A stretch of DNA of 64,000 nt from Erythrobacter ramosus (GTDB lineage Bacteria > Pseudomonadota > Alphaproteobacteria > Sphingomonadales > Sphingomonadaceae). The DNA lies in the NCBI RefSeq assembly GCF_009828055.1, contig NZ_WTYB01000003.1, positions 590 to 64,589 of the forward strand. The letters are read 5' to 3'. The position numbers and the translations under genes were made by a program. The number at the start of each line of letters is the position of its first letter. The stretch's first letter is position 1. The notes below the pieces were generated by a model. That model searched no databases. It was not told the origin of the DNA and was given only the letters and a program-made list of their open reading frames with translations. This document shows positions 38,919-59,250 of the stretch, piece after piece.

Positions 38919-39533
38919 TCAGACCCGCGCTGATTCCAGACGGACGATCAATGCGCTGATTTCGGCGACGGCCAGATCATGGGCCGCGATAAGTTCGCCG
39001 ATATCGTCGATCCGCGCCATCTCGCCATCATCGCGCATGATCGAACAGATCACCGCCGCGTCCCCTGCGCCAGCCATCCGCGCCAGATCGATCGCTGCCT
39101 CGCATGCCGCCGGACGGGCGAGCACGCCGCCGCTCTGGCCGATCAGCGGGAAGACGTGGCCGGGAGAATGGATGTCGGCATTGCTCGCTCCCTCGGCCAT
39201 TGCGACCTGCACGGTATGCGCCCGGTCCGCAGCGGAGATGCCGGTAGACACGCCCTCGGCCGCTTCGATCGAGCGGGCGAAAGGCCGCCCGGTCTGGCGC
39301 GCGGTGCCGGGGTTCACCAAGGTGAGGCCCAGCTGATCGGCACGCTCCGGCGTGACCGCCAGACAGATCAGCCCGCGCCCGTGAGTGGCCATGAAATTGA
39401 TCGCTTCGGGCGTGACGTGCTTTGCAGCACACATCAGGTCGATGTCCCCGCCGCGCAGCCGGTCGCCCGAAATCACCACGATCCGCCCCGCGGCAACAGC
39501 GGCAAGCGCCGCGTCGAAAACCGCGTTGGTCAC
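38919..39533 (-). CDS. RibB-like (DHBP synthase) paralog with altered active-site loop
   Basis: 204 residues from GTG 39533, overlapping the FMN-reductase stop (GTGA). Clear family features: VTPEAINFMATHGRGLICLA, a LTLVNPGTARQTGRPF-type middle and SPGHVFPLIGQSGGVLARPA. However, the catalytic acidic loop DRENEGD of normal 3,4-dihydroxy-2-butanone-4-phosphate synthases reads DRLRGGD (24-30), so both glutamates that bind magnesium and substrate are replaced by Leu26 and Gly28. Ordinary RibB activity is therefore doubtful. Last gene of the minus-strand operon with SsuE-like reductase, GlpD and YeiH; a changed reaction, or a role in flavin supply for the monooxygenase, is inference. Confidence 0.75.
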   Translation of the reverse strand: MTNAVFDAALAAVAAGRIVVISGDRLRGGDIDLMCAAKHVTPEAINFMATHGRGLICLAVTPERADQLGLTLVNPGTARQTGRPFARSIEAAEGVSTGISAADRAHTVQVAMAEGASNADIHSPGHVFPLIGQSGGVLARPAACEAAIDLARMAGAGDAAVICSIMRDDGEMARIDDIGELIAAHDLAVAEISALIVRLESARV

Positions 39534-40102
39534 GCCAGATCCCTTCCGGCAGCAAAGCTCTTGGCGCCGAGCACCACCTGCTTGCCGACCAGTTCCAGCT
39601 GGCCCCGCGCGCGTTCATCAAGGCATTCGCCGTCGGGCGAGAACAGCCCGCGATAGGTGCGGATCGTCGCGCCCATCGGGGTCGGCCAGCCGCGCAGGGC
39701 ATGGGTGATCGCGCGCATAGTGAGCAGGGTCGACATCGACGCCTGATCGCCGAACGCTGTGGCAATCAGCCCGACCGCACGGCCATCAAGGTAAGGGCGC
39801 TCGTCTCGCGAAAGGTCTTCCAGGTAATCGAGCGCGTTCTTCACCACGCCCGAAATCGTGCCGTGATACCCCGGCGCCGCAATCAGCAAGCCATCAGCTG
39901 CGCGCACCGCTGCGACCATCTCGGCCCCTTGCGAAGGATCGTGCAGCGGGCCGAGGTAGTGAGGCAGCGCGGTCAGATATTCGCCGCCGAACACCGTCAC
40001 TTCCGCCCCTTCGCTCGCGGCAATTCCGGCAGCGAGGCGCAGCGCCTGCTCGGTGGACGAGCCGGGGTTGACCGTGCCGCCAAGGGCTACGATTCGGGTC
40101 AT
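39530..40102 (-). CDS. SsuE-like NAD(P)H-dependent FMN reductase
   Basis: 190 residues; ATG 40102 overlaps the glpD stop (ATGA). Flavodoxin-like fold with GGTVNPGSSTEQALRLA at the phosphate site and APGYHGTISGVVKNALDYLE, a signature of SsuE/MsuE-type flavin reductases. These supply free FMNH2 to SsuD-like monooxygenases. The plus-strand set of this locus encodes such a monooxygenase (50690-51781), making a two-component system likely even though the genes lie on opposite strands. In Agrobacterium SmoA fills this role with an unrelated fold. Confidence 0.85.
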   Translation of the reverse strand: MTRIVALGGTVNPGSSTEQALRLAAGIAASEGAEVTVFGGEYLTALPHYLGPLHDPSQGAEMVAAVRAADGLLIAAPGYHGTISGVVKNALDYLEDLSRDERPYLDGRAVGLIATAFGDQASMSTLLTMRAITHALRGWPTPMGATIRTYRGLFSPDGECLDERARGQLELVGKQVVLGAKSFAAGRDLA

Positions 40103-41601
40103 GCGGGGGTAATCCTTTCGGTGATGTAGGCAGCGAGCCGCGCGGTTTGCGCGTCCGTGAAATGCAGGCCGAGCTTGGTCCGCCGCCACAGCACGTCAGC
40201 GGCAGTGCGGGCCCATTCGCGGGTGATGAGGTAGTCGATCTCAGCGGCGGTCAGTCCGTGGCCGAAAGCCTCACCCAAGTCAGCCGCGCTGGCGGCATCG
40301 CCTAGGAACGTGGCGGCCGAAGTACCGTAAAGGCGGATCAGGCGGTAAGCCTCGACCTCGCCCAGAAATGGATAGCGCACGGTCAGATCAGCGGCGAGGG
40401 CGGGCGCATCGAACCGCTCGAAATCGCCGCCGGGCAGGAATGCCTTGCCCGTCCAGTCCTCGCCTTTCAGCACTGGCAGGAAGGGCTCGAGCTGGCGGAT
40501 CGCCTCGGCGGCGAGTTCGCGATAGGTAGTGATTTTGCCGCCGAACACCGAGAGTAGCGGAGCCGCGCCGTCCGCTCCGCCGTCGAGTTCGAAGCTGTAG
40601 CCGCGGGTCGCCGCCTCCGGCTTGCCCGAGCCATCGTCGATCAGCGGGCGCACCCCGGAATAGGTCCAGACGACATCGGCGGGGGTGACGGGCTTGCGGA
40701 AATACTCCGACGCGCCTGCGCACAGGTAAGCGATTTCCTCCGCACTGGCGCGCACTTCGTCAAGGCTGCCATCGTGATCGACATCAGTGGTGCCGATCAG
40801 GGTGAAGTCCTGTTCGTAAGGGATCGCAAAGAAAATCCGCCCGTCGGGCAGTTGGAAGAAATAGGCGTAGTCGTGGTCGAACAGCTTGCGGACAACGATG
40901 TGCGAGCCGCGCACCAGTCGCATCTTCTGCGCCGAAGGCTCGCCTGCGCGGCCCAGCAGATCAAGCACGCGCGGGCCGGCGGCATTGACGACGGCGCGGG
41001 CGTGGAAGGTCTCGCCCCCCGATTCGATCCGCCAATGTTCGTCCTCGCGGGTGAGCGCCGTCACCTCGCAGCGGGTGCGCACCTCGGCTCCGCGATCCGC
41101 TGCGTCGCGGGCGTTGAGCACCACCAGCCGCGCATCATCCACCCAGCCATCGGAATAGGCAAAGGCGCGGGTATATGCGGGCTTGAGCGGCGCGCCGGCG
41201 GGGTGGCGGGTCAGGTCGACACCCTCGGCAGACGGCAGATATTTGCGGCCGCCGATATGGTCATACAGGAACAGGCCCAGCCGCAGCAGCCAGCGTGGGC
41301 GCAAGCCCGGGCGGTGGGGCAGGATGAAGCGCAGCGGCCAGATGATGTGCGGCGCAATGCCCCACAGCACCTCACGCTCGGTCAGCGCCTCGCGTACCAG
41401 AGAGAATTCGTAATGTTCGAGGTAGCGCAAGCCGCCGTGGATCAGCTTGGTGGAATTGGACGAGGTGCCTTCCGCCAGATCTCCGCGTTCGAGCAGCAGC
41501 ACCTTGGCCCCGCGCCCGGCGGCATCGCGGGCGATGCCTGCGCCGTTCACGCCGCCGCCGATCACCGCAAGGTCGAACATCGCTGAGGTAGGCTCAGGCA
41601 T
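40099..41601 (-). CDS. glpD: Aerobic glycerol-3-phosphate dehydrogenase
   Basis: 500 residues (E. coli GlpD has 501); ATG 41601 overlaps the YeiH-like stop (TGATG). FAD motif VIGGGVNGAGIARDAAGRG, then LLERGDLAEGTSSNSTKLIH and GGLRYLEHYEF, and the conserved C-terminal region. It oxidises glycerol-3-phosphate to dihydroxyacetone phosphate and passes electrons to quinone at the inner membrane. No glycerol kinase is in view. In this locus it would use the glycerol freed when a sulfoquinovosidase cuts SQ-glycerol. Confidence 0.93.
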   Translation of the reverse strand: MPEPTSAMFDLAVIGGGVNGAGIARDAAGRGAKVLLLERGDLAEGTSSNSTKLIHGGLRYLEHYEFSLVREALTEREVLWGIAPHIIWPLRFILPHRPGLRPRWLLRLGLFLYDHIGGRKYLPSAEGVDLTRHPAGAPLKPAYTRAFAYSDGWVDDARLVVLNARDAADRGAEVRTRCEVTALTREDEHWRIESGGETFHARAVVNAAGPRVLDLLGRAGEPSAQKMRLVRGSHIVVRKLFDHDYAYFFQLPDGRIFFAIPYEQDFTLIGTTDVDHDGSLDEVRASAEEIAYLCAGASEYFRKPVTPADVVWTYSGVRPLIDDGSGKPEAATRGYSFELDGGADGAAPLLSVFGGKITTYRELAAEAIRQLEPFLPVLKGEDWTGKAFLPGGDFERFDAPALAADLTVRYPFLGEVEAYRLIRLYGTSAATFLGDAASAADLGEAFGHGLTAAEIDYLITREWARTAADVLWRRTKLGLHFTDAQTARLAAYITERITPA

Positions 41602-42695
41602 CAGATCATCCACCACGCAAAGCCCAGCGCTGCTGCGAGCGAGGCGATGGTGGCCGCCAGCACCGGCATCACCGACCGCCAGCCCAATCCGAGCAACAGG
41701 TCGGTCCGCGTCCGCATCGCTGTGGCGGTCACGGCGAGCAGCAGCAAGGTTTTTGACAAGGTCAGCGCATGGCCGGCCAGATTGGCGGGCAGGGTAACAA
41801 GCGAATTGACCCCCACCAGCGCCAAAAACGCGAGAATGAAGCCGGGCAGGATCGGCACCCGCGTGCGGCCCACGCCCTCGGGCAACGGCTCGGCGCGGGC
41901 AATCCACAGCGCGGCGAGCGTTACCAGCGGTGCGAGCAGGGCGACGCGGGTGAGCTTCACCACGGTCGCCTGCGCGCCAGCCGCGTCCGACACCGCGAAC
42001 CCTGCACCGATTGCCTGCGCGACATCATGGATCGATGCACCGACCAGGAACCCGGCCTGCGCATCGCTAAAGCCGAGCATCCGGGTCAGCGGCGGATAGG
42101 TGACGAGCGCAATCGCGCTGGCGGCGGCAAGGATCACCAGCGTCAGGGTGAAAAGCGCCTGATCGATCCGCTCGCGCCCGATCACGCCATACAGCGCCAG
42201 CGCAGCAGACGCCCCGCAGATTGCGGTCGCCCCGCCGCCGAGCAGGCCGACCGATTGGCTCTGTCCGGACAGGCGTGCGGCTGCGAGGGCAGCGATCAGC
42301 GCGGCGCCCATCACTAGCGCAAGGCCAAAAAACGGCACCAGCCCCATTGCCATTACCTGCATCGCGGTGACCTGCACCCCGAGCAGCACGATCCCGGCGC
42401 GCAGGCCGTGGCGAGAGACCCAGTCGAGACCGTCATGGGTGCGGGGGTCTGTGGCCGCAAAGTTCAGCGCAAGGCCGAGCAGCAAGCCCGCTAAAATGAT
42501 CGGCACCCCGTAATTCTGGCTGAGCCAGGCGGCAGCCGCTCCGGCAATGGCACAGATCGCCAAACCGGGGACGAAGCGCGACAACGGCTTCTTCTCAGCC
42601 TTAGTAGCGGCAGCAGCAGCCGTATCGGCGAGCATGATCTCGCCGAACAGGTCGCCGGCAAAAGCCTCGTAGTCGGGGCGCGCATCGCGCTTCAT
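41601..42695 (-). CDS. YeiH/UPF0324-family putative sulfite/sulfate exporter
   Basis: 364 residues, about ten membrane segments after a soluble N-terminal 40 residues. Family motifs: GLLLGLALNF, GLRAGIVLLGVQVT, GGGATAICGASAA, GASIHDVAQAIGAGFAVSD. The family (PF03601, 'conserved hypothetical protein 698') is annotated as putative sulfate exporter and often sits with sulfonate-degrading genes. Here it could remove the sulfite released by the monooxygenase. Start at 42695; an internal ATG at 42635 is possible. Coupled to glpD by TGATG. Confidence 0.85.
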   Translation of the reverse strand: MKRDARPDYEAFAGDLFGEIMLADTAAAAATKAEKKPLSRFVPGLAICAIAGAAAAWLSQNYGVPIILAGLLLGLALNFAATDPRTHDGLDWVSRHGLRAGIVLLGVQVTAMQVMAMGLVPFFGLALVMGAALIAALAAARLSGQSQSVGLLGGGATAICGASAALALYGVIGRERIDQALFTLTLVILAAASAIALVTYPPLTRMLGFSDAQAGFLVGASIHDVAQAIGAGFAVSDAAGAQATVVKLTRVALLAPLVTLAALWIARAEPLPEGVGRTRVPILPGFILAFLALVGVNSLVTLPANLAGHALTLSKTLLLLAVTATAMRTRTDLLLGLGWRSVMPVLAATIASLAAALGFAWWMI

Positions 42696-42780
42696 GCCGT
42701 TCAGCCTGCCTTATGTCTCACGGTGTCATAGCCCTACTCCGCAAGCCTGTTGAATGCAACCGCACCTGCGCCTTGGGCGG

Positions 42781-44046
42781 CTATGCGAACAGATCGACCG
42801 CTTCTTCTTCTGGCCGGCGGATCACTGGCAGCAGCCACTGGAACCACGCCAGCGCAAGCAGATAGGACGAGGCGGCAAAGATGAACAGCGGCACGAAGCC
42901 AAAGCCTGCATCGAGCACGCGGCCAGTAATCAACGAAATCGCGACTCCGCCCATATTGCCCATGAACGCGCCGAACGCGGTAACCCGCCCGACCTTGGCG
43001 TTGGGGACGACATCGGTGATGGTCGAAAACAGCGAGAGCGAGAAGCCCTGATGCCCGGCCATCACTACCCCGATCATCACGGCCACGGGCCAAAATGCGT
43101 TGAGCTCCAGCACCAGCGGCAGGGGCGCGACCAGTAGGGCCGAGGCCAGCATCACGCCCTTGCGCACCCGGTTGGGGCTATGCCCGCGCTCCAGCAGCCG
43201 GGTCGACACCCATCCCGCCAGCAGTGCGCCGAGGCCTGACCCGGCAAAGGCAATCGCCAGGGGCACCGCGAGCTCCAGCGTGGTGAGGCCGAATTCCTTG
43301 CGGTAGTAATCCGCCAGCCAGAAGTTGATGAACCACCAGGTCATGTCCGAAAGCGCTTTGGCACCGACGATTGCCCAGGTCGCGCGGTTGGCGAGGATTG
43401 CGCCGTAACGCGCGCTCTCGCCGCCCGGATCGGGGCTGTCCGCCAGCGTGCGCTCACGCAATTGCGCCACCCCGCGCGCCAGCCACATCCATGCGAGCAG
43501 CGACAGAAATCCGCCGATCCCGCCCGCCACCAGCGCCCCGCGCCAGCCCACCGCCAGCGCAAGTGCCGGGATGACGAAGGGCATCGCAATCGTGCCCGCG
43601 CCGGCCAGCATGGTCGCAAAGCCGAAGGCGAAGCTGCGCTTGTCCGGCGGGAACAGGCTGGCGACGGTCTTGATCGTCAGCGGGGTCTGCACCGCCTCGG
43701 TCACGCCCAGCCCGACGCGCGCGGCGACCACCTGCGCAGTGCTCAGCGCCCAGCCATGCGCGACCGCCGCAAGGCTCCACGCGGTCGCGCCCACCTGCAT
43801 CGAACGGTTCACGCCGAGCCGGTCGACAAGCCAGCCGGTGAACAGGAAGGCGAAGGCGGCGGAGAATTGCGTGACTGCGGCGAGATCGCCGAAGTCACTA
43901 TCGCTCCAACCGAAATCGGCCATCATGTCGGGCTTCAGGATCGCAATGATCGGGCGGTCCATCGCATTGAATACGCCCGCGACGCACAGCACCGTGAACA
44001 GCGACCAGCGCAGCCGCGCAGATATGGGCGAGGAAGGTTGGGCCAT
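42781..44046 (-). CDS. MFS transporter, candidate inner-membrane SQ/SQ-glycoside importer
   Basis: 421 residues from ATG 44046 with AGGA eight bases upstream; the GTG just before is an alternative. Twelve hydrophobic segments, the MFS loop motif GWLVDRLGVNR between helices 2 and 3, and an anion:cation symporter-like layout. Substrate cannot be read from sequence. Position between a TonB receptor gene (upstream) and the YeiH/glpD genes (85 bp downstream) suggests it carries the compound taken up by the receptor. Known SQ monooxygenase clusters use an ABC importer, so this would be a replacement. Confidence 0.82.
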   Translation of the reverse strand: MAQPSSPISARLRWSLFTVLCVAGVFNAMDRPIIAILKPDMMADFGWSDSDFGDLAAVTQFSAAFAFLFTGWLVDRLGVNRSMQVGATAWSLAAVAHGWALSTAQVVAARVGLGVTEAVQTPLTIKTVASLFPPDKRSFAFGFATMLAGAGTIAMPFVIPALALAVGWRGALVAGGIGGFLSLLAWMWLARGVAQLRERTLADSPDPGGESARYGAILANRATWAIVGAKALSDMTWWFINFWLADYYRKEFGLTTLELAVPLAIAFAGSGLGALLAGWVSTRLLERGHSPNRVRKGVMLASALLVAPLPLVLELNAFWPVAVMIGVVMAGHQGFSLSLFSTITDVVPNAKVGRVTAFGAFMGNMGGVAISLITGRVLDAGFGFVPLFIFAASSYLLALAWFQWLLPVIRRPEEEAVDLFA

Positions 44047-44093
44047 CACGGGTTCCTAGAGTTCAAGCACGCAGCAGGGCAAGCAAGGCCAGA

Positions 44094-44127
44094 CAAAAAG
44101 GGCCGCCGGATCGCTCCGACGGCCCTT
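44094..44127 (-). terminator. Terminator after the SQ-locus TonB receptor gene
   Basis: AAGGGCCGCCGGA (44098-44110) and TCCGACGGCCCTT (44115-44127) form a 13-bp stem with one C-A mismatch and a TCGC loop; on the minus strand five U follow. It lies between the receptor stop and the MFS start, so the abundant receptor is probably made in excess and downstream genes read through or have their own promoter. Confidence 0.85.
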
Positions 44128-44151
44128 GTTGATTTCAAGTTGCCACGCGGG

Positions 44152-46467
44152 TCAGAAGGTCCGCACACGCAGGCTGATGCCGAAATAGCGGTCGGCATCG
44201 CGCGGGATCTGCAAGCGGCGCCCGTTCTCGATATTGAGCAGCACGTAGCTCTCATCAGTGATGTTGCGGGCGTGGAAGGTCACGCGATACTTGTCGTCCG
44301 GATCGGAGAAGCCGACCGAGGCGTTCCAGATGCCATAGGGATCGATCCGGGTGGTCGGCGACTGGCCGAGGTCCGAGAACTGCGTGCTGGTGTGGCGGTA
44401 ATCGGTGTTGAGGTACAGCGTCACCCCGCCCAGTTCCTTGGTATAGTCCCCGCCGATGGTGTAGACGAACTTCGGCGCCAGCGGCAGCACGGTGCCGTTG
44501 CGTGCGTCGGGCGCGTTGGTGGTCGGGTTCGGATTGAACTGCTTGACCCGTGCGTCCGCATAGGCCGCGCTGGCGCGCAGGTTCAGCCCGTCGACCGGGT
44601 TGACGATCAGATCGGCTTCGAAGCCTTCGCTCTTAACCGTGCCCGCGTTGGTCAGGTTCGAAATCGTCGCAGTATTGACGACGATGAAGTTGTTCGCCTG
44701 GAACCCGTCATACTCGACCATGAACGCCGCGACGTTGAGCTGCACGCGGTTGTCGAGGAACTGCGTCTTCGCCCCGATTTCAAAGCTGTCAGACAGCTCT
44801 TCGGAGATTGGCACCGCGTTGTTCGGCGCGGTGTGGTTGAAGAACACGTTGAAGGCCGGACCCTTGTAGCCGCGGGTGTATGAGCCGTAGAGCATGATGT
44901 CTTCCGACGGCTTGAACTGAATCGCCGCCCGGCCCGACAGGTTGCCGTTGGTGGTCTCGCCGCGGCTGGTGTTGGTGCCGTTGCCGCCGCTGGCGATGGT
45001 GCCGCCCGCCGGGTTGCCGTTCGTGCCCGGGCCGGTTGCGGGCAGACCGGTGGTGCGGTTGACCGCCGGTGCGCGGGTGTGGGTGAATTCAAGATCATCC
45101 CATGTGTAACGCAGGCCGCCGGTCAGCGAGAGCTGCTCGGTGATCTGGTAGGTGGCCTGACCGAACAGTGCGTAGTTCTTCGACCGCACGTCGCTGCGCG
45201 AGGTGGCGAAGGGGAACAGCGTGTTGACCGTATCGGAAACATTGCACGGGATCGCTCCGCCCGGCAGCGCCGCGAGAGTCGAGGTTGCGCAGGTCACACC
45301 CTGACGGGTGAAATCCTGAGTATTGTCCGATTGCCAAGCGAAGGCGCCGACCTGATAGAAGAACGGCTTCGACTGGTCCGAAGCGAGGCGGATTTCGGCC
45401 GAGACCTGTTCGGTCTTGACCACACCAAGATCATGCAGCTGGCCTGCGCCGACGATTGCGCGCGGCAGGAAATCGCCCTCGCGGTTCTCGGTGTTCTCCC
45501 AGTTGCGGTAGCCGAGCACGACGCTGAGGGTGTGAGTGTCGGTGATCTCGAAATCGCCGGTGCCCGTCAGGCTCCACTGCTGATCCTGCGTGCTGGTAAC
45601 GAGGTCATTATTGATGAAGCGCTGGTCCTCGCCCAGAGCCACGCCGCCCGGCAGTGCGAGTAGCGCATCCTGCAACGCGCCGCGGCTGGCGCCGGTCACG
45701 TCGACGCAGCAATCATCATCGGCCTTGTAGTAATCCGCAATCAGGCGGACGGTGTTGCCGCCATCGTCATAATCCATGATCCCGCGCACGCCGTAACGCT
45801 CGTAACCATTGACCTTGTCGTTGCGGCCGCCGTTGATATTGGTGATGTTGCCATCAAAGCTGCCGTAGAAGCCGGTCAGGCGAGCGCTGAGGTTTTCACC
45901 CAGCGGACCAGAAATGGCTGCGCGCAGGCGGTATTCCTCGCCTTCGAACCAGTCGGCGCTGGCTTCGGCTTCAAACGTGTCGGTGCCGCCCTTGGACACG
46001 ATGTTGACCAAACCGGCCGAAGCATTGCGGCCGAACAGCGTGCCCTGCGGCCCGCGCAGAACTTCAAGCCGTTGGAGATCAACCAGATCCATGAAGGCTT
46101 GGCCCGAACGCGACAGCACCACGCCATCGACAACGGTGGACACAGACGGTTCAGCGGCGACCGAGAAGCTGATGGTGCCGACGCCGCGCATCACGATCGC
46201 GCTGTTGGCGCTGGTGGTGCCCTTGCGGAAGGTCACCGAGGGGACGACGGTCGAGATGTTCTCGAGGCTGATGACCCCCGCCTGAATCAGGCGATCGCCC
46301 GAAACCGCGGTGATCGCGATCGGCACGTCCTGAACGTTTTCTTCGACCTTCTGGGCGGTTACGATGATTTCTTCGACCTGCGCCATGGCCGGCGCAGTGT
46401 GCATCAGCGCCAGCGAGCTGGCGGAAATGGCGAGCGTTTTAAGCGCAATACGGGTGGTGGCGGACAT
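44152..46467 (-). CDS. TonB-dependent outer-membrane receptor of the SQ locus
   Basis: 771 residues from ATG 46467 with GGGAGAGAA upstream. Signal peptide (ending APAMAQ), TonB box EEIIVTAQKVEENVQDVPIA, plug domain with GVGTISFSVAAEPSVSTVVD and RLEVLRGPQGTLFGRNASAG, then a 22-strand barrel ending FGISLRVRTF with terminal Phe. It matches the large sphingomonad receptor group that imports oligosaccharides, glycosides and aromatic compounds rather than only siderophores. It is divergent from the sulfoquinovosidase gene, so uptake of SQ glycosides (for example sulfoquinovosylglycerol from plant or algal debris) is the contextual inference. Confidence 0.9.
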   Translation of the reverse strand: MSATTRIALKTLAISASSLALMHTAPAMAQVEEIIVTAQKVEENVQDVPIAITAVSGDRLIQAGVISLENISTVVPSVTFRKGTTSANSAIVMRGVGTISFSVAAEPSVSTVVDGVVLSRSGQAFMDLVDLQRLEVLRGPQGTLFGRNASAGLVNIVSKGGTDTFEAEASADWFEGEEYRLRAAISGPLGENLSARLTGFYGSFDGNITNINGGRNDKVNGYERYGVRGIMDYDDGGNTVRLIADYYKADDDCCVDVTGASRGALQDALLALPGGVALGEDQRFINNDLVTSTQDQQWSLTGTGDFEITDTHTLSVVLGYRNWENTENREGDFLPRAIVGAGQLHDLGVVKTEQVSAEIRLASDQSKPFFYQVGAFAWQSDNTQDFTRQGVTCATSTLAALPGGAIPCNVSDTVNTLFPFATSRSDVRSKNYALFGQATYQITEQLSLTGGLRYTWDDLEFTHTRAPAVNRTTGLPATGPGTNGNPAGGTIASGGNGTNTSRGETTNGNLSGRAAIQFKPSEDIMLYGSYTRGYKGPAFNVFFNHTAPNNAVPISEELSDSFEIGAKTQFLDNRVQLNVAAFMVEYDGFQANNFIVVNTATISNLTNAGTVKSEGFEADLIVNPVDGLNLRASAAYADARVKQFNPNPTTNAPDARNGTVLPLAPKFVYTIGGDYTKELGGVTLYLNTDYRHTSTQFSDLGQSPTTRIDPYGIWNASVGFSDPDDKYRVTFHARNITDESYVLLNIENGRRLQIPRDADRYFGISLRVRTF

Positions 46468-46502
46468 GGTAATTCTCTCCCCTGCATCGTGATCGGGTCT
46501 TT

Positions 46503-46528
46503 CGGGCGATAGCAAAGACCATCGCCCG
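46503..46528. promoter_or_regulatory. Inverted repeat in the divergent SQ-locus promoter region
   Basis: CGGGCGAT (46503-46510) and ATCGCCCG (46521-46528) are perfect 8-bp arms around 10 bases, in the 164-bp region between the TonB receptor and sulfoquinovosidase starts. It could be the operator of the LacI protein encoded at 48617, though the spacing is wider than the usual LacI site with central CG. Assignment is by position only. Confidence 0.35.
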
Positions 46529-46631
46529 TGCGGTCGATCTTTCGGTGCTCGGGTTGCGCTTTCCGCCGCGATCTGTCAAGCGGTGTCAGAACGGGCCAAG
46601 GGATAGCCCGGTGAGGGAATCTGGGACGAGA

Positions 46632-48620
46632 ATGGTGGCAATGACGCCATGCGAGGGGGGATTTGACCTGCGATTGGCGGGGTGGACGATCCTGCGTAAC
46701 AGACCACATAGTCCTGTAATTTCAGTGTCTTCAGGCAATTCTCTGGTCACGATGGTGCGTGGCAATTTCCGCCTGTCGGATACCCCTGTGGCAGCAAGGC
46801 CACTGTCTGTTTGCGAAGTGGCGGATGAGGGCGCGGCGGTGCTCTCCAGCGCCGATGGAACCGCGAAACTGTCCGCGAGTCTTGCGCCAGACGCATCGCG
46901 GCTCACTATGACCGCGCTCACCGGGCATGACCGCATCACGCTCGACTTCACGCTGGCCCCCGATGATGTGCTGTGGGGCGGGGGTGAGCAGATGAGCTAT
47001 CTCGCTCTCAACGGTCGCACATTTCCGATCTGGACAAGCGAACCGGGGGTCGGCCGCGAACCCGGCACGCCGCTTACCGATCAGGCGAGTGCCGACGGGT
47101 CGTTCGCGGGCGGGGACTACTGGACGACCAACTATCCCGAACCCACGGTGCTGTGCTCCAGCGGCTGGGCGCTGAGCCTTGCCAATGCCGAATATGTCGA
47201 ACTCGACGCCAGCGAGCAGGGGCGGTTGCGCGTTCATGTGTGGTCGGGTGAGGTAGTCATCGACCTGTTCGAAGGCGCGCCCGCCGACCTTACCCGGCAG
47301 CTCGCCGCGCGCTTCGGTCCGCGTCAGGCGCTGCCCGATTGGGCATTGGGTGGGGCCATCGTCGGCCTCAAGCAGGGCGAGGCGAGCTTCGACCGGCTCG
47401 AAGCTTTGATCGAAGCGGGTGCTGCCATTTCCGGCCTTTGGTGCGAAGACTGGGTCGGCATCCGCGAGACGAGCTTCGGACGCCGGTTGTTCTGGGACTG
47501 GCAGTGGAACGCGGAACGTTACCCCGATCTGCCCTCCCGCATCGCGGCGCTGAAAGCGCGCGGTATCCGCTTCCTCGGCTATGTGAACCCCTACCTTGCG
47601 GTCGACGGTCCGCTCTATCCCGAGGCTGCGGCCAAGGGCTACTTCGCCAAATGCCTCGACAGCGATGAACCCTATGCGGTCGATTTCGGCGAGTTCCACG
47701 CTGGCGTCGTCGACTTCACCAACCCTGCCGCTGCCGAATGGTTCGCTGAGGACGTGATCGGCAAGCGTATGCTCGATTTCGGGCTCGATGGCTGGATGGC
47801 GGACTTCGGCGAATATCTGCCCACCGATCTGCGCTTGCACGATGGCGACCCGATGCAGGAGCACAACCGCTGGCCTGTGCGCTGGGCGGAAGTCAACGCG
47901 CGCGCCGTCGCCTCGCGCGGGCGGACGGGCGATGTGCTGTGGTTCATGCGCGCAGGCCACACGGGCGTCCAGGCGCATTGTCCACTCTTGTGGGCGGGCG
48001 ACCAGTCGGTCGATTTCAGCCGCCATGACGGGATCGGAACGGTCATTACTGCCGCGCTGTCATCGGGGCTGGTGGGCAACGCGTTCAGTCACTCGGACGT
48101 GGGCGGCTACACCAGCCTGTTCGGCAATGTCCGTTCGCCCGAATTGCTGCTGCGCTGGTACGAGCTGGGCGCTTTCAGCCCGGTGATGCGCACCCACGAA
48201 GGCAACCGCCCCGACGATAATCTCCAGATCGACAGCAACGCCGAACTGATCGAGGGCTGTGTCAGGTGGAGCAATATCCACGCGCACCTTGCGCCCTATG
48301 TTCGGCATCTCGTGATCGAAGCGCAGGCGACTGGCCTTCCGGCCCAGCGCGCGCTGTTCCTCCACTATCCGCTCGACCGTGAAACGTTCACGATCCAAGA
48401 CCAGTACCTCTATGGCGGGGACCTGATGGTGGCGCTGGTGATCGAGGCAGGGGCGGTAATGCGGAGAGTCTATCTGCCGGAAGGCGAATGGCGGCATGTC
48501 TGGAGCGGCGCAGACTTCACCCCCGGCTGGCACGATGTCACGGCGCCCATCGGCGAGCCGCCGGTTTTCTACCGCCGCACCAGCACCTTCGCGCCCCTGT
48601 TTGCGGAGCTCGCCCGATGA
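46632..48620 (+). CDS. GH31 sulfoquinovosidase (YihQ/SmoI-like, KERWY type)
   Basis: 662 residues from ATG 46632 (GGGACGAG upstream). Aligned by motif to E. coli YihQ over the whole length, including WTSEPGVGRE, WMADFGEYLPTD, LWAGDQSVD, HSDVGGYTSLF, MRTHEGNRPDDN and PIGEPPVFYRR. Catalytic nucleophile Asp391 and acid/base Asp457. The sulfonate-recognition residues are Lys247 (GLKQGE), Glu272 (WCEDW), Arg285, Trp288 and Tyr493, spaced exactly as Q262, Q288, R301, W304 and Y508 of YihQ: the KERWY subclass described for the Agrobacterium enzyme. No signal peptide, so cytoplasmic. It should release SQ from SQ-glycerol or SQDG-derived glycosides. First of a plus-strand operon. Confidence 0.92.
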   Translation: MVAMTPCEGGFDLRLAGWTILRNRPHSPVISVSSGNSLVTMVRGNFRLSDTPVAARPLSVCEVADEGAAVLSSADGTAKLSASLAPDASRLTMTALTGHDRITLDFTLAPDDVLWGGGEQMSYLALNGRTFPIWTSEPGVGREPGTPLTDQASADGSFAGGDYWTTNYPEPTVLCSSGWALSLANAEYVELDASEQGRLRVHVWSGEVVIDLFEGAPADLTRQLAARFGPRQALPDWALGGAIVGLKQGEASFDRLEALIEAGAAISGLWCEDWVGIRETSFGRRLFWDWQWNAERYPDLPSRIAALKARGIRFLGYVNPYLAVDGPLYPEAAAKGYFAKCLDSDEPYAVDFGEFHAGVVDFTNPAAAEWFAEDVIGKRMLDFGLDGWMADFGEYLPTDLRLHDGDPMQEHNRWPVRWAEVNARAVASRGRTGDVLWFMRAGHTGVQAHCPLLWAGDQSVDFSRHDGIGTVITAALSSGLVGNAFSHSDVGGYTSLFGNVRSPELLLRWYELGAFSPVMRTHEGNRPDDNLQIDSNAELIEGCVRWSNIHAHLAPYVRHLVIEAQATGLPAQRALFLHYPLDRETFTIQDQYLYGGDLMVALVIEAGAVMRRVYLPEGEWRHVWSGADFTPGWHDVTAPIGEPPVFYRRTSTFAPLFAELAR

Positions 48621-49624
48621 GCCGCGCCAACATCAAGGATGTGGCCGCCCGCGCAGGCGTAGCGGTCAAGACCGTCAGCCGCGTGCTCAACGGCCACCCC
48701 TATGTCAGCGATACGCTGCGCGAGAAGGTCGAGCGGGCGATGGCCGATCTCGACTACCGGCCCTCGGTGGCTGCGCGCATCCTGTCCGGCGCAAAGTCCC
48801 ATCAGGTTGCGCTGATCTACGACAATCATAGCCCCTATTACATGTTCCAGATCCAGAAGGGTTGCTGGGAGGTGTGCCAGGAAAACGGCATCCGCCTGCT
48901 CGCCCAACCGGTGGACGTTGCCGATCCACGCGTCGGCGATCAGGTGCGCGGGCTGGTGAGTGAGACCCACGTGGATGGCATCATCCTCTCCTCGCCGGTC
49001 ACCGATTGCGATCCGGTGCTGCGCGCGCTGGAGGGGATGGACGTGCCGTTCGTGCGCATCTCGCCGGGGACCAATCACGCGCTGACATCCTCGGTGTTCA
49101 TGGACGACGCGCAGGCCGCCGACGACATGACCACGCACTTGATCAACGCCGGGCACCGCCGGATCGGGTTCATCAAGGGCCACACCAACCACATGGCGTC
49201 CGACGATCGCTTGTTCGGATACCGCCGCGCGCTCGACCGGGTCGGCATCCCGTTTGAGCCGCAGATGGTGGTCGACGGCGAGTTCGACTTCGATTCCGGC
49301 GTGGCGGGCGCGAAGGCGTTGCTCGATCAGCCCGAACGCCCCACCGCGATTTTCGCCTCGAACGACGATATGGCCGCCGGTGTGCTTGCGGTCGCGCATG
49401 ATCGCGGCATCAATGTGCCGGGCGATCTGTCGGTCGCCGGGTTCGATGACACCACGCTGGCGCGAACCGTCTGGCCGCCGCTCACCACGATCCGCCAGCC
49501 GATGGCCGATCTGGCGCGCACCGCCACCCAAATCCTGATCGCAGGCGGGGACATCACCCACAAGCGCCTGCCCCATGACCTTGTCGAGCGCGCTTCGGTC
49601 GCTCCGCCAAAGAGGAACCCCTAG
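48617..49624 (+). CDS. LacI-family regulator of the SQ locus
   Basis: 335 residues; ATG 48617 overlaps the sulfoquinovosidase stop (ATGA). N-terminal LacI helix-turn-helix and hinge (NIKDVAARAGVAVKTVSRVL, YRPSVAARILSG) and a sugar-binding periplasmic-protein-like effector domain (ALIYDNHSPYYMFQIQKGCW, FIKGHTNHMASDDRL, AIFASNDDMAAG, VAGFDD). It is the likely repressor of both divergent gene sets, probably released by SQ or SQ-glycerol; the inducer is inference. Confidence 0.92.
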   Translation: MSRANIKDVAARAGVAVKTVSRVLNGHPYVSDTLREKVERAMADLDYRPSVAARILSGAKSHQVALIYDNHSPYYMFQIQKGCWEVCQENGIRLLAQPVDVADPRVGDQVRGLVSETHVDGIILSSPVTDCDPVLRALEGMDVPFVRISPGTNHALTSSVFMDDAQAADDMTTHLINAGHRRIGFIKGHTNHMASDDRLFGYRRALDRVGIPFEPQMVVDGEFDFDSGVAGAKALLDQPERPTAIFASNDDMAAGVLAVAHDRGINVPGDLSVAGFDDTTLARTVWPPLTTIRQPMADLARTATQILIAGGDITHKRLPHDLVERASVAPPKRNP

Positions 49625-50539
49625 ATGAGTGAACTGCCCCTTCCGCCTGCCACCCGCGCCCTTGGTGCGAGCGGCATTGAGGTGTCTCCCATTGCCTGGG
49701 GGATGTGGCGGCTGACCGAAAATGGCCGGACCGTCGCCGAAGCCGCCAAGCTGGTGCACGCGGCGCTGGATGCTGGGATCACCTTCCTCGACACCGCCGA
49801 CATCTACGGCTTCGATGGTAGTGCGGGCTTTGGCGATGCCGAGGTGCTGCTGGGCGAGGTGCTGGCCGCCGAACCGGGCCTGCGCGACAAGATGGTGCTC
49901 GCGACCAAGGGCGGTATCCTGCCGCCGCTGCCGTACGATCAGAGCGCGGCTTATCTGCGCGCCGCTATCGAAGCGTCGCTGACCCGCCTGAAGGTCGACA
50001 GCGTCGATCTGTGGCAGATCCACCGTCCCGATATTCTCGCCCATCCGCAAGAGACGGCGCGGGTGCTGGATGATGCGATGGCGAGCGGCAAGATCCGCAG
50101 TCTTGGCGTCTCCAATTTCACGATGGCCCAGACCGCCGCGCTGAACCACTTCCTCGGCAACAAGCTGGTCACGACCCAGCCTGAAATCAGCCCGCTTCGG
50201 ATCGATTGCTTCGAGAATGGCGAACTCGATCAGGCGATGATGCTGGGCCTGACCCCGATGGCATGGTCACCCTTGGGCGGCGGCAGGCTCACCGCGCCGG
50301 AGAATGCGCGCGAGAGCGCGGTGGCTGCCGCGCTGGATGTCGTGGCCGAGGCGCACGGCGTCTCGCGCACGGTCGCCGCCTACAGCTGGCTGATGGCGCA
50401 CCCGGCGGGGATCATTCCCATCATCGGCTCGCAGAACGCCGAGCGGATTGCGGAAGGTGCGACTGCGCTCACGGTGCGCTGGACGCGGACGGATTGGTAC
50501 GCGGTGCTGGTCGCCGCGCGGGGTGTGCCTTTGCCTTGA
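49625..50539 (+). CDS. Aldo-keto reductase, candidate 6-oxoglucose reductase (SmoB-like role)
   Basis: 304 residues; ATG directly after the LacI stop, with AGAGGAA upstream. TIM-barrel AKR with the complete catalytic tetrad Asp56, Tyr61, Lys95, His133 (FLDTADIY, LATKGG, WQIHRPD), and the NADPH-site GVSNFTMAQ and IIPIIGSQNAERI. The closest general type is the YdhF-like group. In the SQ monooxygenase pathway the desulfonation product 6-oxoglucose is reduced to glucose by an AKR (SmoB). Position between the sulfoquinovosidase/LacI and monooxygenase genes makes this role likely. Confidence 0.85.
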   Translation: MSELPLPPATRALGASGIEVSPIAWGMWRLTENGRTVAEAAKLVHAALDAGITFLDTADIYGFDGSAGFGDAEVLLGEVLAAEPGLRDKMVLATKGGILPPLPYDQSAAYLRAAIEASLTRLKVDSVDLWQIHRPDILAHPQETARVLDDAMASGKIRSLGVSNFTMAQTAALNHFLGNKLVTTQPEISPLRIDCFENGELDQAMMLGLTPMAWSPLGGGRLTAPENARESAVAAALDVVAEAHGVSRTVAAYSWLMAHPAGIIPIIGSQNAERIAEGATALTVRWTRTDWYAVLVAARGVPLP

Positions 50540-50549
50540 GTTAAATTCT

Positions 50550-50645
50550 CCGTTCGCCCTGAGCTTGTCGAAGGGCCGCACTTTTCTTCGGGTTCAGCGC
50601 GTGACCTCCAGAAGAACGGTGCTTCGACAAGCTCAGCACGAACGG
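50550..50645. repeat. REP-like inverted repeat with GAGCTTGTCGAAG core
   Basis: Arms 50550-50573 and 50622-50645 (24 bp, two mismatches) share the core CTGAGCTTGTCGAAG and its complement CTTCGACAAGCTCAG, separated by 48 bases. This palindromic element occurs widely in sphingomonad and related genomes between genes. Here it separates the aldo-keto reductase and monooxygenase genes of one operon and could stabilise or split the mRNA. Confidence 0.85.
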
Positions 50646-50689
50646 GGAGCGGTTCTAAGCAGAACGAAAATTGGGATGGGATTGAAGTC

Positions 50690-51781
50690 ATGACTGAACA
50701 GCAACAATGCGAAATCGCGTGGTTCTCCGCGCTCTGCGACGACGATTACGAGTTCCTCGGCGTCCCCGATCCCTATCTCGCCTCAAGCTGGGAGCATTGC
50801 CGCAACATCGTGCTGCGCGCGGAAGAAGGCGGGTTTGACAACATCCTGCTGCCCTCGGGCTATCAGCTGGGCGTCGACACCACGATCTTCGCCGCTGCCG
50901 TGGCGACGCAGGTCAAGCGCATCAAGCTGCTCTGGGCCACCCGCATGGGCGAAGACTGGCCGCCGCAGCTGGCGCGCCGGATCGCGACATTGGACCGCAT
51001 TCTTGGCCCGAATGCTGCTGGCACCGGAGGCAGGCTCAACGTCAACATCATCTCCTCCGATATGCCGGGAGAGAAAATCGAGTCCGGCCCGCGGTACCGT
51101 CGCGGCACCGAGATCATGAAGATCGTCAAGACGCTGCTCAACGGCGAACACCTCGATTTTGACGGCGAGTTCTATCAGCTCAAGCTCGATCCACCGCGCA
51201 TCACGACGCTCAATGGCAAGTGCCCGCCGTTCTACTTCGGCGGCCTCTCCCACGAGGCGCGCGAGTGTGCGGCCGAGGCGGCGGACGTCTACCTGATGTG
51301 GCCCGACACGATGGACAAGGTGCGCGAGAACATCGCCGACCTGAAGGCGCGGGCCGCCAATCACGGGCGGACCCTCAAGTTCGGCTACCGCGCCCACGTG
51401 ATCGTGCGTGAGACCGAGGACGAGGCGCGGCACTACGCCGATCGCCTGCTTTCGAAGCTCGACGACGAGGCAGGCCGCGCGATCCGCGAGAAAAGCCTCG
51501 ACGCCAAGAACTACGGCGTCCAGCGCCAGCAGGAACTGCGCGGCGCGGCGGATGGCGACGGCTTTGTCGAAGAGAACCTGTGGACCGGCATCGGCCGCGC
51601 ACGCTCCGGCTGCGGCGCGGCGATCGTCGGCACGCCCGATCAGGTGCTCGCCAAGCTGCGCGCCTATCAGGCCGAAGGAATCGAAGCCTTCATCCTGTCG
51701 GGCTACCCCCACGCACAGGAGGCCGATCTGTTTGCCCGCCATGTGCTGCCACACATTCAGCACGGGCCATTGGAGATGTGA
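50690..51781 (+). CDS. SsuD-like FMNH2-dependent sulfonate monooxygenase (SmoC-like, candidate SQ monooxygenase)
   Basis: 363 residues, luciferase-like TIM barrel. Residues used for alkanesulfonate oxidation in SsuD are in place: YRAHVIVRET gives the Arg/His pair (R226, H228 of SsuD), GRARSGCGAAIVG the Arg at 297 and LSGYPH the Tyr at 331. With FMNH2 and oxygen it should cleave the C-S bond and release sulfite; for SQ the product is 6-oxoglucose. The context (sulfoquinovosidase, aldo-keto reductase, FMN reductase, YeiH) favours SQ over simple alkanesulfonates. Last gene of the plus-strand set. Confidence 0.88.
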   Translation: MTEQQQCEIAWFSALCDDDYEFLGVPDPYLASSWEHCRNIVLRAEEGGFDNILLPSGYQLGVDTTIFAAAVATQVKRIKLLWATRMGEDWPPQLARRIATLDRILGPNAAGTGGRLNVNIISSDMPGEKIESGPRYRRGTEIMKIVKTLLNGEHLDFDGEFYQLKLDPPRITTLNGKCPPFYFGGLSHEARECAAEAADVYLMWPDTMDKVRENIADLKARAANHGRTLKFGYRAHVIVRETEDEARHYADRLLSKLDDEAGRAIREKSLDAKNYGVQRQQELRGAADGDGFVEENLWTGIGRARSGCGAAIVGTPDQVLAKLRAYQAEGIEAFILSGYPHAQEADLFARHVLPHIQHGPLEM

Positions 51782-54744: not shown

Positions 54745-55269
54745 ATGAGAGCCGACGAAGCCTCGCTCGCCCGGTTGATGGCGCTGTCGCAGCAAGGCGA
54801 CAAGCAGGCCTATGCCTCGCTGCTGGACGCGTGTCAGCGCTGGCTGCGGGGCTATTACAGCCGCCGGATCGCGCCCTCCAGCCTTGACGATCTGGTGCAG
54901 GAAACGCTGATCGCGCTCCACACCAAGCGCGCCTCTTGGGATCCGTCGCGCCCGTTCCTGCCGTGGCTGGCCGCGATTGCGCGCTATCGTTGGGTCGATC
55001 ACCTGCGCCGCCTGTACCGCGCTGACGAGCACGAATTGCGCGAAGAGCTGATCGGCACGGACGACGAACCCGCCGTCACCGCGCGCATCAGTTTGGACCG
55101 GCTGCTCGGCCTGCTTCCACCCGCACAGGAGCGCGCGATTGCGCTGGTGAAGATCGAAGGGATGAGCATCGCCGAAGCCTCGGCCGCGACCGGACAGAGC
55201 GAGGCGCTCGTCAAAGTGAACATTCACCGGGGGCTGAAAAAGCTCGCCCATATGATTGAGAAAGAATGA
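54745..55269 (+). CDS. ECF sigma factor, SigF-like (partner of NrsF)
   Basis: 174 residues, ATG 54745, weak ribosome-binding site. Region 2 (LDDLVQETLIALHTKRASWD, PWLAAIARYRWVDHLRR) and region 4 (LPPAQERAIALVKIEGMSIAEASAATGQSEALVKVNIHRGLKKL). Its stop overlaps the next gene (ATGA), which encodes an NrsF/DUF1109 membrane anti-sigma factor. In Caulobacter the SigF/NrsF pair responds to metals and oxidative stress. Targets here cannot be read from the window. Confidence 0.9.
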   Translation: MRADEASLARLMALSQQGDKQAYASLLDACQRWLRGYYSRRIAPSSLDDLVQETLIALHTKRASWDPSRPFLPWLAAIARYRWVDHLRRLYRADEHELREELIGTDDEPAVTARISLDRLLGLLPPAQERAIALVKIEGMSIAEASAATGQSEALVKVNIHRGLKKLAHMIEKE

Positions 55270-55916
55270 CAATGCCGCGCAATTCCGATGCCCTGATTGC
55301 CGAGTTGGTTGGCGACCTCGAGCCGGTCAAGCCGCTGCGCTTTGGCGCGGGGATGGCGGCCACGCTGGCGGCGGCGACGCTCTCGTCGGCGGTCGTGATC
55401 GCCTTGTTCGGCTTGCGGCCAGATTGGCTGGAGGGGCGCGTCAATCCGATGCATCTGCTGGCGACCGGGCTGTATCTCGGCCTTGCGCTGGCAGCGACAG
55501 TCACCGTCGTGGTGATGAGCCGCCCGCAGGTCGGTAGCGACTACAGCGGCTGGCGCTGGGCGGCGGCGATGACCGGGCTGTTGCCCGTGGCGGGGCTGAT
55601 CGTCGGCATCAGCCGTGGGCGCGACATGCTCTCTGCCGAGACCATGCGCCATGGGGGCGAATGCCTGGTGCTGGGCGGGGGCGCCTCGCTGCTGGTGTTC
55701 GCGATGCTGGTGCTGTGGCTACGGCGCGGCGCCCCGACCGCGCCCGACCGCGCCGGACTGGTCGCGGGCGTCGCGGCAGGGGCTTTCGGCATCTTTGCCT
55801 TCTCGCTCCACTGCCCGGACAATGACATCGTCCATATCGGCATATGGCACAGCACGGTGGTGCTGGCGATGGCGGGGCTTGGCCGTATCACGGTGCCTCG
55901 CCTGATCCGCTGGTAG
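55266..55916 (+). CDS. NrsF-family (DUF1109) membrane anti-sigma factor
   Basis: 216 residues, six hydrophobic segments after a short cytoplasmic N-terminus (SDALIAELVGDLEPVKPLRF). Conserved cysteines are present in HGGECLVLGG and FSLHCPDNDIVHIGIWH; in the Caulobacter protein paired cysteines sense chromium/cadmium. It should hold the sigma factor at the inner membrane until stress. ATGA overlap with the sigma gene supports tight stoichiometry. Confidence 0.9.
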   Translation: MTMPRNSDALIAELVGDLEPVKPLRFGAGMAATLAAATLSSAVVIALFGLRPDWLEGRVNPMHLLATGLYLGLALAATVTVVVMSRPQVGSDYSGWRWAAAMTGLLPVAGLIVGISRGRDMLSAETMRHGGECLVLGGGASLLVFAMLVLWLRRGAPTAPDRAGLVAGVAAGAFGIFAFSLHCPDNDIVHIGIWHSTVVLAMAGLGRITVPRLIRW

Positions 55917-55934
55917 GCCAGCGCCCAGAAGGGT

Positions 55935-57734
55935 TTAATCGCGACCCTTGGGCTTGCCCTTGAACTTGCCCTGAGGCTTGCCGCCTGCCTTGGCGAAATG
56001 CTTCGGCTTGGCGAAGCCAGCGCCGGGCGCAGCACCGGGACCGACGGGCTTGGGCTTGAACGGACGCTGCGGGGCAGGGCCGTTGGGCTTGCCGCGCTTG
56101 GCATTCTCCCGCGCGGCCATGCGCGGCGGCTCGTTCGATTGCTCGATAGCGACATAGCCGCCGTTTTCCTCGCTGCCCGCCGTCGCCGCAATGGCTTCGG
56201 CAAACTTGCCCGCGATGGCGCGGGGGATCTGGAAATAGGTCTCTGCCTGAGCGATCCGGATCGCGCCGATTTCGTTGCGGGTGATATGACCGCGGCGGCA
56301 GATCAGCGGCATGACCCAGCGCGGATCGGCGTTCTGGCGGCGGCCGATATCCATCCGGAACCAGACCGTATCCTCGAACCCTTCGCGGTGACGATCCTTC
56401 TGCGCGGCGCGCTGGGCATCGACGGATTGCGCCAGCAGCTCCTCAGGCTCAGGCATCGACGCACGGTGCGCCTGCACCAGCATGGCAGCGATTTCCTGCG
56501 GGCTTTTGGTTTCGAGCAGCTTGTCGGCCAGCTCGCGGTCACCATCGGTGACTTCGACGGGCTGCATCAGCTTGTCGAGCAACCGCACCCGGTCCTGCGC
56601 GATGATGTCCTCGCGGCTGGGCGCATTGATCCACTCGGCGTTGATCTTGGCATGGTGGAGCATCGATTCGACCCGCCGGCGGCGCGGGAAGGGAACGATG
56701 ATGACCGCGATGCCCTTCTTGCCCGCGCGCCCGGTGCGGCCCGAACGGTGCTGGAGCGTTTCGGCATCGCGCGGGATTTCCACGTGGACGACGAGGCTGA
56801 GTGAGGGCAGGTCGATCCCGCGTGCGGCGACATCGGTGGCCACGCACACCCGGGCGCGGCGATCGCGCAGGGCCTGGAGCGCTTGGTTGCGTTCCTGCTG
56901 CGAATGCTCGCCCGACAGCGCGACGACGCCAAAGCCGCGCTCCTGCAAGGTCGCGTGCAGGTGGCGGACATTGTCGCGCGTGGCGCAGAAAAGGATCGCG
57001 GTTTCGGCTTCGTGGAAGCGCAGCAGATTGATGACCGCGTTCTCGATTTCGGACGGCGAGACCGTGACCGCCTGATAGGCGATGTCGCCATGCCCACGCT
57101 CGCTGCCGCCAGTCTGGATGCGCAGCGCATCGCGCTGGTACCGGCGGGCGAGGGCTTCGATCGGGCGCGGCATGGTGGCCGAGAACATCAGCACGCGCCG
57201 TTCTTCCGGCGTCGCGTCGAGAATTTCTTCCAGCTCCTCGCGGAAGCCCATATCGAGCATTTCGTCCGCTTCATCGAGCACCACGGCGGACAGCGCCGAC
57301 AGGTCGAGCGCGCCGCGTTCCAGGTGATCGCGCAAGCGGCCGGGGGTGCCCACGACAATGCTTGCGCCGCCAGCCAAGGCGCGGCGTTCGACCTGCGGGT
57401 TCATGCCGCCCACGCAAGTGGCGATACGGGCACCTGCCGACTTGTAGAGCCAATCGAGTTCGCGGGCGACTTGCAGCGCCAATTCGCGGGTCGGGGCAAT
57501 CACCAGCGCCAGCGGGCCGGAGGCGCGGCGCACGCGGCCATCTTCGTCCAGCACCTGATCGGCAAAAGCGAGGCCAAAGGCGACCGTCTTGCCCGAGCCG
57601 GTCTGCGCCGAGACGACCAGATCGCGGCCATGCGCTTCCGGTTCGAGCACGGCGGACTGCACCGGGGTAAGCGTTTCATAGCCGCGTGTGGCCAGGGCCT
57701 CGGCGAGGCCAGCGGCGATATGGGGAAATGGCAT
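55935..57734 (-). CDS. DEAD-box ATP-dependent RNA helicase with DbpA-like C-terminal domain
   Basis: 599 residues from ATG 57734, the position where homologs begin (IAAGLAEALATRGYETLTPVQ Q-motif); a TTG at 57788 is an alternative and neither has a clear ribosome-binding site. Motifs: AQTGSGKT, PTRELALQ, VLDEADEMLD, FSATMP, and HRSGRTGRAG. The C-terminal region (about 455-530) resembles the DbpA/CsdA RNA-binding domain, then a Lys/Gly/Pro-rich tail that should bind RNA. Likely role: ribosome assembly or cold-shock RNA remodelling. Confidence 0.93.
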   Translation of the reverse strand: MPFPHIAAGLAEALATRGYETLTPVQSAVLEPEAHGRDLVVSAQTGSGKTVAFGLAFADQVLDEDGRVRRASGPLALVIAPTRELALQVARELDWLYKSAGARIATCVGGMNPQVERRALAGGASIVVGTPGRLRDHLERGALDLSALSAVVLDEADEMLDMGFREELEEILDATPEERRVLMFSATMPRPIEALARRYQRDALRIQTGGSERGHGDIAYQAVTVSPSEIENAVINLLRFHEAETAILFCATRDNVRHLHATLQERGFGVVALSGEHSQQERNQALQALRDRRARVCVATDVAARGIDLPSLSLVVHVEIPRDAETLQHRSGRTGRAGKKGIAVIIVPFPRRRRVESMLHHAKINAEWINAPSREDIIAQDRVRLLDKLMQPVEVTDGDRELADKLLETKSPQEIAAMLVQAHRASMPEPEELLAQSVDAQRAAQKDRHREGFEDTVWFRMDIGRRQNADPRWVMPLICRRGHITRNEIGAIRIAQAETYFQIPRAIAGKFAEAIAATAGSEENGGYVAIEQSNEPPRMAARENAKRGKPNGPAPQRPFKPKPVGPGAAPGAGFAKPKHFAKAGGKPQGKFKGKPKGRD

Positions 57735-57910
57735 GGGGAGAAGGCTTTCAGACAAGGGCGCCGCCACAGGGGGCAGGCGGAGAGACAAGGGGGACAGCGG
57801 AGCGCGGATCGGGCCACCAGGCCAACCTCGCGCAGAGCGTCGACAAGCGGCCCTTACACAGTTTCGGGGTGTTTGGCTTGCGATTAAATCACAAGGGCGT
57901 TCCGCTATAC

Positions 57911-58171: not shown

Positions 58172-58222
58172 GCCCGCGTCCCTATCGCACGCAGGCGCGT
58201 TTGCCTACCGGTCGCGGGGGCC

Positions 58223-59248: not shown

Positions 59249-59250
59249 CG

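Follow-up and report, generated by a model that had tools for sequence, protein, structure and literature searches.

Sulfoquinovose (SQ) is a very common plant sulfur-sugar. The accessible text of PMC9594981, PMC12890257, PMC13372026 and PMC10755693 reports the sulfo-SMO/ASMO pathway from Agrobacterium and from Novosphingobium aromaticivorans. For the latter, the available portions of PMC9594981 and PMC12890257 describe a sulfo-ASMO cluster with SquD, SquF and a YihQ-type SQase, and according to the same portion of PMC9594981 the enzymes were characterised as recombinant proteins. This cluster is represented here by its published descriptions (the genome lies outside the best 80 of at least 572 loci recovered in our searches). 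It comes from the same bacterial order as the locus studied here and has the same core chemistry, but it is reported, in the part of PMC9594981 at hand, to be without an SsuE homologue, whereas the present locus carries a PF03358 reductase gene and a RibB-like gene. The SmoI, SmoC, SmoB and SmoA system of Agrobacterium tumefaciens provides the closest solved structures for our GH31 protein, monooxygenase and aldo-keto reductase. Agrobacterium uses an ABC importer for SQ-glycerol (PMC9594981, same portion); the present locus has instead a TonB-dependent receptor and an MFS transporter, together with GlpD, YeiH and RibB-like genes. Because the pathway was already reported for the sphingomonad N. 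aromaticivorans, the core is not new. The claim of a first-pass annotation that the whole combination had not been described was therefore overstated: sulfo-ASMO is published, as far as the accessible text of PMC9594981 and PMC12890257 goes, and the gene set is common in Sphingomonadales. Among the literature titles searched, none joined an SQ cluster with TonB; TonB or MFS genes may be drawn in the cluster diagrams of Sharma 2022, Liu 2021 and Snow 2021. The locus is an ordinary core in a widely shared sphingomonad variant with one strange conserved accessory, the RibB-like protein, designated RibB-prime.

The window (the whole stretch of DNA analysed) comprises 64,000 nucleotides from Erythrobacter ramosus. 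Ten genes at 38919-51781 form two divergent sets separated by 164 bases (46468-46631). All ten proteins were confirmed with Pfam and NCBIfam models and are present as first annotated. Gene starts were chosen by us, and the features are as follows.

38919-39533, minus strand, RibB-like protein (RibB-prime); PF00926, 206 bits
39530-40102, minus strand, FMN_red, flavodoxin-fold NAD(P)H FMN reductase; PF03358, 84.8 bits
40099-41601, minus strand, GlpD, glycerol-3-phosphate dehydrogenase; NF009906, 739.2 bits (cut-off 352)
41601-42695, minus strand, YeiH/PF03601 membrane protein; PF03601, 161.5 bits (cut-off 24.5)
42714-42728, plus strand, regulon element copy TGTCTCACGGTGTCA, upstream of yeiH-glpD-fmnR-ribB
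42781-44046, minus strand, MFS transporter; PF07690, 152.6 bits
44152-46467, minus strand, TonB-dependent receptor; PF00593 and PF07715
46574-46588, plus strand, regulon element copy TGTCAAGCGGTGTCA, within the tonB-gh31 divergent gap
46632-48620, plus strand, GH31 sulfoquinovosidase, KERWY type; NF007746, 806 bits (cut-off 553)
48617-49624, plus strand, LacI-family regulator; PF00356 and PF13377
49625-50539, plus strand, aldo-keto reductase, SmoB/SquF-like; PF00248, best PDB match 7bbz at E 1.3e-57
50690-51781, plus strand, SmoC/SquD-like luciferase-like monooxygenase; best PDB matches 7olf and 7oh2

The plus set is ordered gh31-lacI-akr-llm. The minus set consists of tonB, mfs and then yeiH-glpD-fmnR-ribB, in which neighbouring reading frames overlap by 1-4 bases. 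The locus is flanked on one side by a PRC-barrel gene and a PAS/HWE kinase, and on the other by two acyl-CoA dehydrogenases. This gene content and order were seen again in dozens of genomes, far above chance.

The best PDB match of the GH31 protein was 5ohy (E 3.6e-224). In the alignment with 5ohy/5ohs, which we take to be the Agrobacterium SQase, its K-E-R-W-Y residues and its two catalytic aspartates are all matched; the motif name KERWY and the roles of its residues in GH31 are likewise taken as given. With these pocket residues aligned and a score above the NF007746 cut-off, the cluster contains a sulfoquinovosidase, in agreement with its earlier designation as a KERWY-type enzyme. No signal peptide was seen in the GH31 protein on inspection by eye. 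The monooxygenase matched 7olf (E 1.7e-109) and 7oh2 (E 2.7e-107), both with generic PDB molecule names and both presumably SmoC. By comparison, SsuD (1m41) was matched at only 1.1e-54 and the SsuD model TIGR03565 was missed (246 vs 518.2 bits). These matches predict an SQ monooxygenase of the SmoC/SquD type. For the aldo-keto reductase, the best PDB matches were 7bbz and 7bby, of which 7bbz (also generic in name) is taken to be SmoB, and the protein is a putative 6-dehydroglucose reductase of the SmoB/SquF type. The entries matched by all three proteins are assumed to be Agrobacterium sulfo-SMO gene products. The flavin reductase had been annotated as SsuE-like; its PF03358 membership fits, but it lies far below both the SsuE and MsuE equivalog cut-offs (30.3 bits against 164.05 for SsuE). 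Relatives of this reductase also occur without SmoC (G008, G071 and G076).

Three proteins of the minus set are assigned from gene position. The TonB receptor is the proposed route of SQ glycosides through the outer membrane, the MFS protein a proposed importer of SQ or SQ-glycerol, and the YeiH/PF03601 protein a proposed exporter of sulfite or sulfate. The best NCBIfam model for the MFS protein was TIGR00893 (galactonate transporter), at 107.8 bits and thus short of the cut-off of 395. As for the YeiH-type exporter of the first-pass annotation, the PF03601 assignment stands (161.5 vs 24.5 bits), but the protein misses TIGR00698 (84.2 vs 232.6 bits). No ABC importer for SQ-glycerol was found among the ten genes and ten flanking ORFs scanned. 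The GlpD of the locus is the sole full GlpD match found in its own genome (G000), so its role may be a general one in glycerol metabolism. The description of the system as self-contained was too strong, since glycerol kinase (GlpK) is encoded outside the locus, at G000:C2:62296-63753. In the annotation of N. pentaromativorans pLA3, llm, glpD and glycerol kinase are consecutive, which fits SQ-glycerol as the substrate.

A 15-bp element, TGTCNNNCGGTGTCA, precedes both gene sets and so defines one candidate regulon. It is present twice in the window (46574 and 42714), and 100 shuffles gave no copy. A scan for CG-centred palindromes, meant to reveal a LacI operator, was unproductive and showed no clean LacI-type palindrome in the element; it was an alignment of 43 rows and shared 8-mers that revealed it, the tonB-gh31 gap containing one conserved block while the remainder had diverged. 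Across 2.02 Mb (loci L032-L149 plus the window), 113 sites were counted against a chance expectation of 0.33 under a first-order Markov model of the same loci; the pattern was found by inspection and drawn from the loci in which it was counted, and the count takes related loci at face value. These sites fall in 106 distinct contexts of 135 bases, the duplicates being the same genome fetched twice. By position, 60 of the 113 are within a gap between tonB and gh31 and the other 53 are next to mfs, yeiH or, in L098 and L099, glpD, and none of the 2.02 Mb outside the promoter regions of SQ clusters contained a copy. The strict element was absent near the GlpK gene of the same genome and from L032, L033, L155 and L157.

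Among the best 80 of at least 572 loci, 74 strict sites were found in 44 loci (43 tonB-gh31; 31 mfs, yeiH or glpD). A looser form, TGTCNNNCGNTGTCA, was present in all 47 divergent tonB-gh31 gaps of these 80 loci and in 26 of their 34 testable yeiH upstream regions, the other 8 being without it. Within the same best 80 of at least 572, 6 of 52 loci with a LacI match of at least 63% had no looser element (L101, L054, L074, L084, L085 and L092); in all of these except L101 the sequence begins inside or just before the genes. Conversely, L073, L097 and L103 have the looser element with LacI absent or more distant. LacI probably controls both gene sets through the 15-bp element. The element before yeiH would place this gene under the same control as the SQ genes, and with it glpD, fmnR and ribB if the four are one operon, as their overlapping frames suggest. 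The candidate element, which earlier work on LacI regulons of Sphingomonadales may already describe, could serve the annotation of SQ clusters.

Relatives of the locus were collected by a scan with the SmoC alignment, in which at least 572 were confirmed and the best 80 named loci kept; the nearest named relatives among the matches listed belong to Porphyrobacter and Erythrobacter. SmoC was detected at E <= 1e-60 in 88 of 396 Sphingomonadales genomes. The first-pass annotation had made its reading depend on co-conservation of the GH31, monooxygenase and reductase genes, and this was found. In 150 genomes (own included), SmoC was present in 36, GH31 in 35 and both in 34, leaving three with only one of them (SmoC in G111 and G138; GH31 in G032), and the aldo-keto reductase gene adjoins SmoC in the Sphingomonadales loci inspected. 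The order tonB-gh31-lacI-akr-llm repeats across genera. An adjacent divergent tonB-gh31 pair is present in 47 of the best 80 of at least 572 loci, several of which are incomplete. The MFS and TonB genes range from close to more distant kinds, and the MFS gene occurs in either orientation. Once SmoC identity drops under about 75%, the layout is more variable. As a set, TonB/MFS/YeiH/GlpD is a version of the system that is widespread in sphingomonads.

Other arrangements were also seen. In Rhizobium L111, L113-L115, L122 and L127, and in L157, SmoC-like genes (about 70% identity) occur without GH31 and SmoB-like neighbours; in the Rhizobium loci the other cluster genes are not nearby or give weak matches only, and in L157 the SmoC-like gene has an ABC importer and a LacI gene for neighbours. 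On a plasmid of Novosphingobium sp. EMRT-2 (L155), a SmoC/AKR pair adjoins uronate genes and a gene of the phytanoyl-CoA dioxygenase family, while the opposite strand carries an alpha-glucosidase (GH31-type); this rearranged variant does not have the strict element.

We read the locus with confidence as one SQ regulon in two gene sets, with a pathway of the sulfo-SMO (sulfo-ASMO) type. Gene content, homology, synteny and the common element were observed; from these we infer each enzymatic and transport step of SQ flow, as well as binding of the element by LacI. The TonB receptor would admit SQ-glycerol or other SQ glycosides, and the MFS protein would move them across the inner membrane to a cytoplasmic GH31 enzyme that frees SQ and glycerol. 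The PF03358 reductase would supply FMNH2 to the SmoC-like monooxygenase, which is predicted to cut the C-S bond and yield sulfite and 6-dehydroglucose, the latter to be reduced to glucose by the SmoB-like reductase. YeiH may export sulfite or sulfate, and glycerol would be burned by GlpD and the GlpK encoded elsewhere. LacI would probably govern both sets via the 15-bp element, and RibB-prime might serve the reductase/monooxygenase step in a non-canonical role. The locus offers a definite inventory of genes for uptake, desulfonation, removal of sulfite and use of glycerol. Homology, synteny and the common upstream element support the core that had been read from the window (SQ glycoside hydrolysis, oxidative desulfonation and 6-dehydroglucose reduction), as well as the linkage of the TonB, MFS, exporter and GlpD genes to it. 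Use of the same chemistry on another sulfonated or anionic sugar, such as sulfofucose, would suit an MFS protein and a TonB receptor that match broad families only, and a SmoC just 53 and 51% identical to those of order members L032 and L033. Given that the K-E-R-W-Y residues align with the Agrobacterium SQase and that the SmoC and SmoB entries are the top matches of the monooxygenase and the reductase, we consider another substrate very unlikely.

RibB-prime has the domain and fold of a DHBP synthase, a vitamin B2 enzyme (PF00926; AF2 model), and falls just under the TIGR00506 cut-off (176.7 vs 177.45 bits). The AF2 model has a mean pLDDT of 80.5, with residues 74-96 below 50. The best PDB match of this predicted structure was RibBX 6mnz (TM 0.79), and all 47 PDB matches at E <= 0.001 were DHBP synthases or fusions of them. 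Identity in the structural alignment was 39% to RibB 1g57 and 48% to RibBX 6mnz. These proteins share the fold of RibB-prime, but the RibB-prime clade is without the metal ligands, the catalytic Glu and the X domain. In E. coli DHBP synthase numbering, we take Glu38 and His153 to be metal ligands and Glu174 to be catalytic. The window protein has E38G, H153A and E174S, as well as Gly33 and Asp40. In every one of the 34 aligned cluster copies, Glu38 is replaced by Gly or Arg, His153 by Ala and Glu174 by Ser or Ala, a stronger result than the altered RibB first annotated. In a second, overlapping set, all 25 RibB-prime proteins form one clade with 100/100 support and have lost the same three residues, while Arg37, Asp42, Thr107, His136 and Arg150 are kept in 25 of 25. 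Seventeen other Sphingomonadales RibBs (16 distinct), E. coli RibB and 6mnz keep all of these residues. With E38, H153 and E174 lost throughout the clade, DHBP synthase activity has very probably been lost, as judged from sequence. An intact housekeeping RibBA is encoded elsewhere in the same genome.

Of 396 Sphingomonadales genomes, 28 carry RibB-prime, each of them with SmoC on the same contig within 12.4 kb, and 0 of 308 SmoC-negative genomes do (P about 1e-20 on the assumption of independent genomes, which does not hold). Since 60 of the 88 SmoC genomes are without it, it is an accessory. At E <= 1e-58, none was found in 384 other genomes of the class sample; the cut-offs of 1e-60 and 1e-58 were set where they separate RibB-prime from the ordinary enzyme, and distant forms could escape them. 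In the genus set, G014, G032, G058 and G069 have a RibB-prime-type gene (E <= 1e-60) without SmoC, each time on a contig that breaks off within the cluster. RibB-prime adjoins the reductase in 13 of 15 fetched SmoC loci that have the reductase, the exceptions being L120 and L099 (the latter at a locus edge). In 14 of the 28 genomes, fmnR-ribB, usually with glpD, is on the strand opposite SmoC at 11.6-12.3 kb, and in the other 14 it is on the same strand at 1.5-3.2 kb. The glpD-fmnR-ribB block follows yeiH in window-type loci and llm in others; in L083, L084, L087 and L088, fmnR-ribB follows llm without glpD. That the accessory block switches gene set yet stays in the cluster argues for a shared function.

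RibB-prime would be an accessory, non-canonical member serving the reductase/monooxygenase step. An active DHBP synthase boosting flavin supply to the monooxygenase would have the same fold and Pfam family and an adjoining flavin reductase, and the lux operons are a known case of rib genes placed among genes for flavin enzymes. It is very unlikely, given the residues missing from 34 of 34 copies and kept by all 17 other RibBs, and the housekeeping RibBA already in the genome. The lost residues could also mark a decaying passenger gene, but this is scarcely credible for one clade at 100/100 with a median dN/dS of 0.127 (37 rows, 75-99.5% identity only, some being the same genome twice; 0.1425 for the cluster AKR), indicative of purifying selection. 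Mixed dimerisation with RibBA, by which RibB-prime would tune flavin synthesis as a regulatory pseudoenzyme, is a possible but rather doubtful alternative. The two subunits of a DHBP synthase dimer share an active site, and H136, kept in 25 of 25, is presumably contributed by the partner subunit; mixed dimers alone would not require R37, D42, T107 and R150 of its own pocket, which are kept just as strictly. We regard it as an even call whether RibB-prime is a new functional family, that is, a metal-independent DHBP synthase descendant with a re-used ligand pocket that was recruited to Sphingomonadales SQ monooxygenase clusters, where it would either catalyse a step on an intermediate that is a sugar or an aldehyde (e.g. 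6-dehydroglucose) or bind a flavin or metabolite as a partner of the reductase/monooxygenase pair. A whole-word literature search gave no paper joining RibB and sulfoquinovose, and none of the titles listed concerned an altered RibB. Conserved though without its catalytic residues, RibB-prime is a cleanly defined puzzle tied to one pathway.

Several other features of the window were recorded. A protein with BLUF and B12-binding domains (24714-25781, minus strand), presumably AppA/PpaA-like by domain make-up, fits an aerobic phototroph lineage. A GT20 glycosyltransferase (trehalose-6-phosphate synthase type) and a trehalose phosphatase are paired at 28465-30891 (minus strand). A type I secretion-like set (OEP, ABC exporter and HlyD; 6009-10870, plus strand) is near a cadherin-like repeat ORF (12-1523) and a 1392-aa ORF with no Pfam match (1568-5746). 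The region 54745-63227 (plus strand) encodes an ECF-type sigma factor with an NrsF-type anti-sigma, ORFs without a Pfam match and, at 60642-63227, a second TonB receptor.
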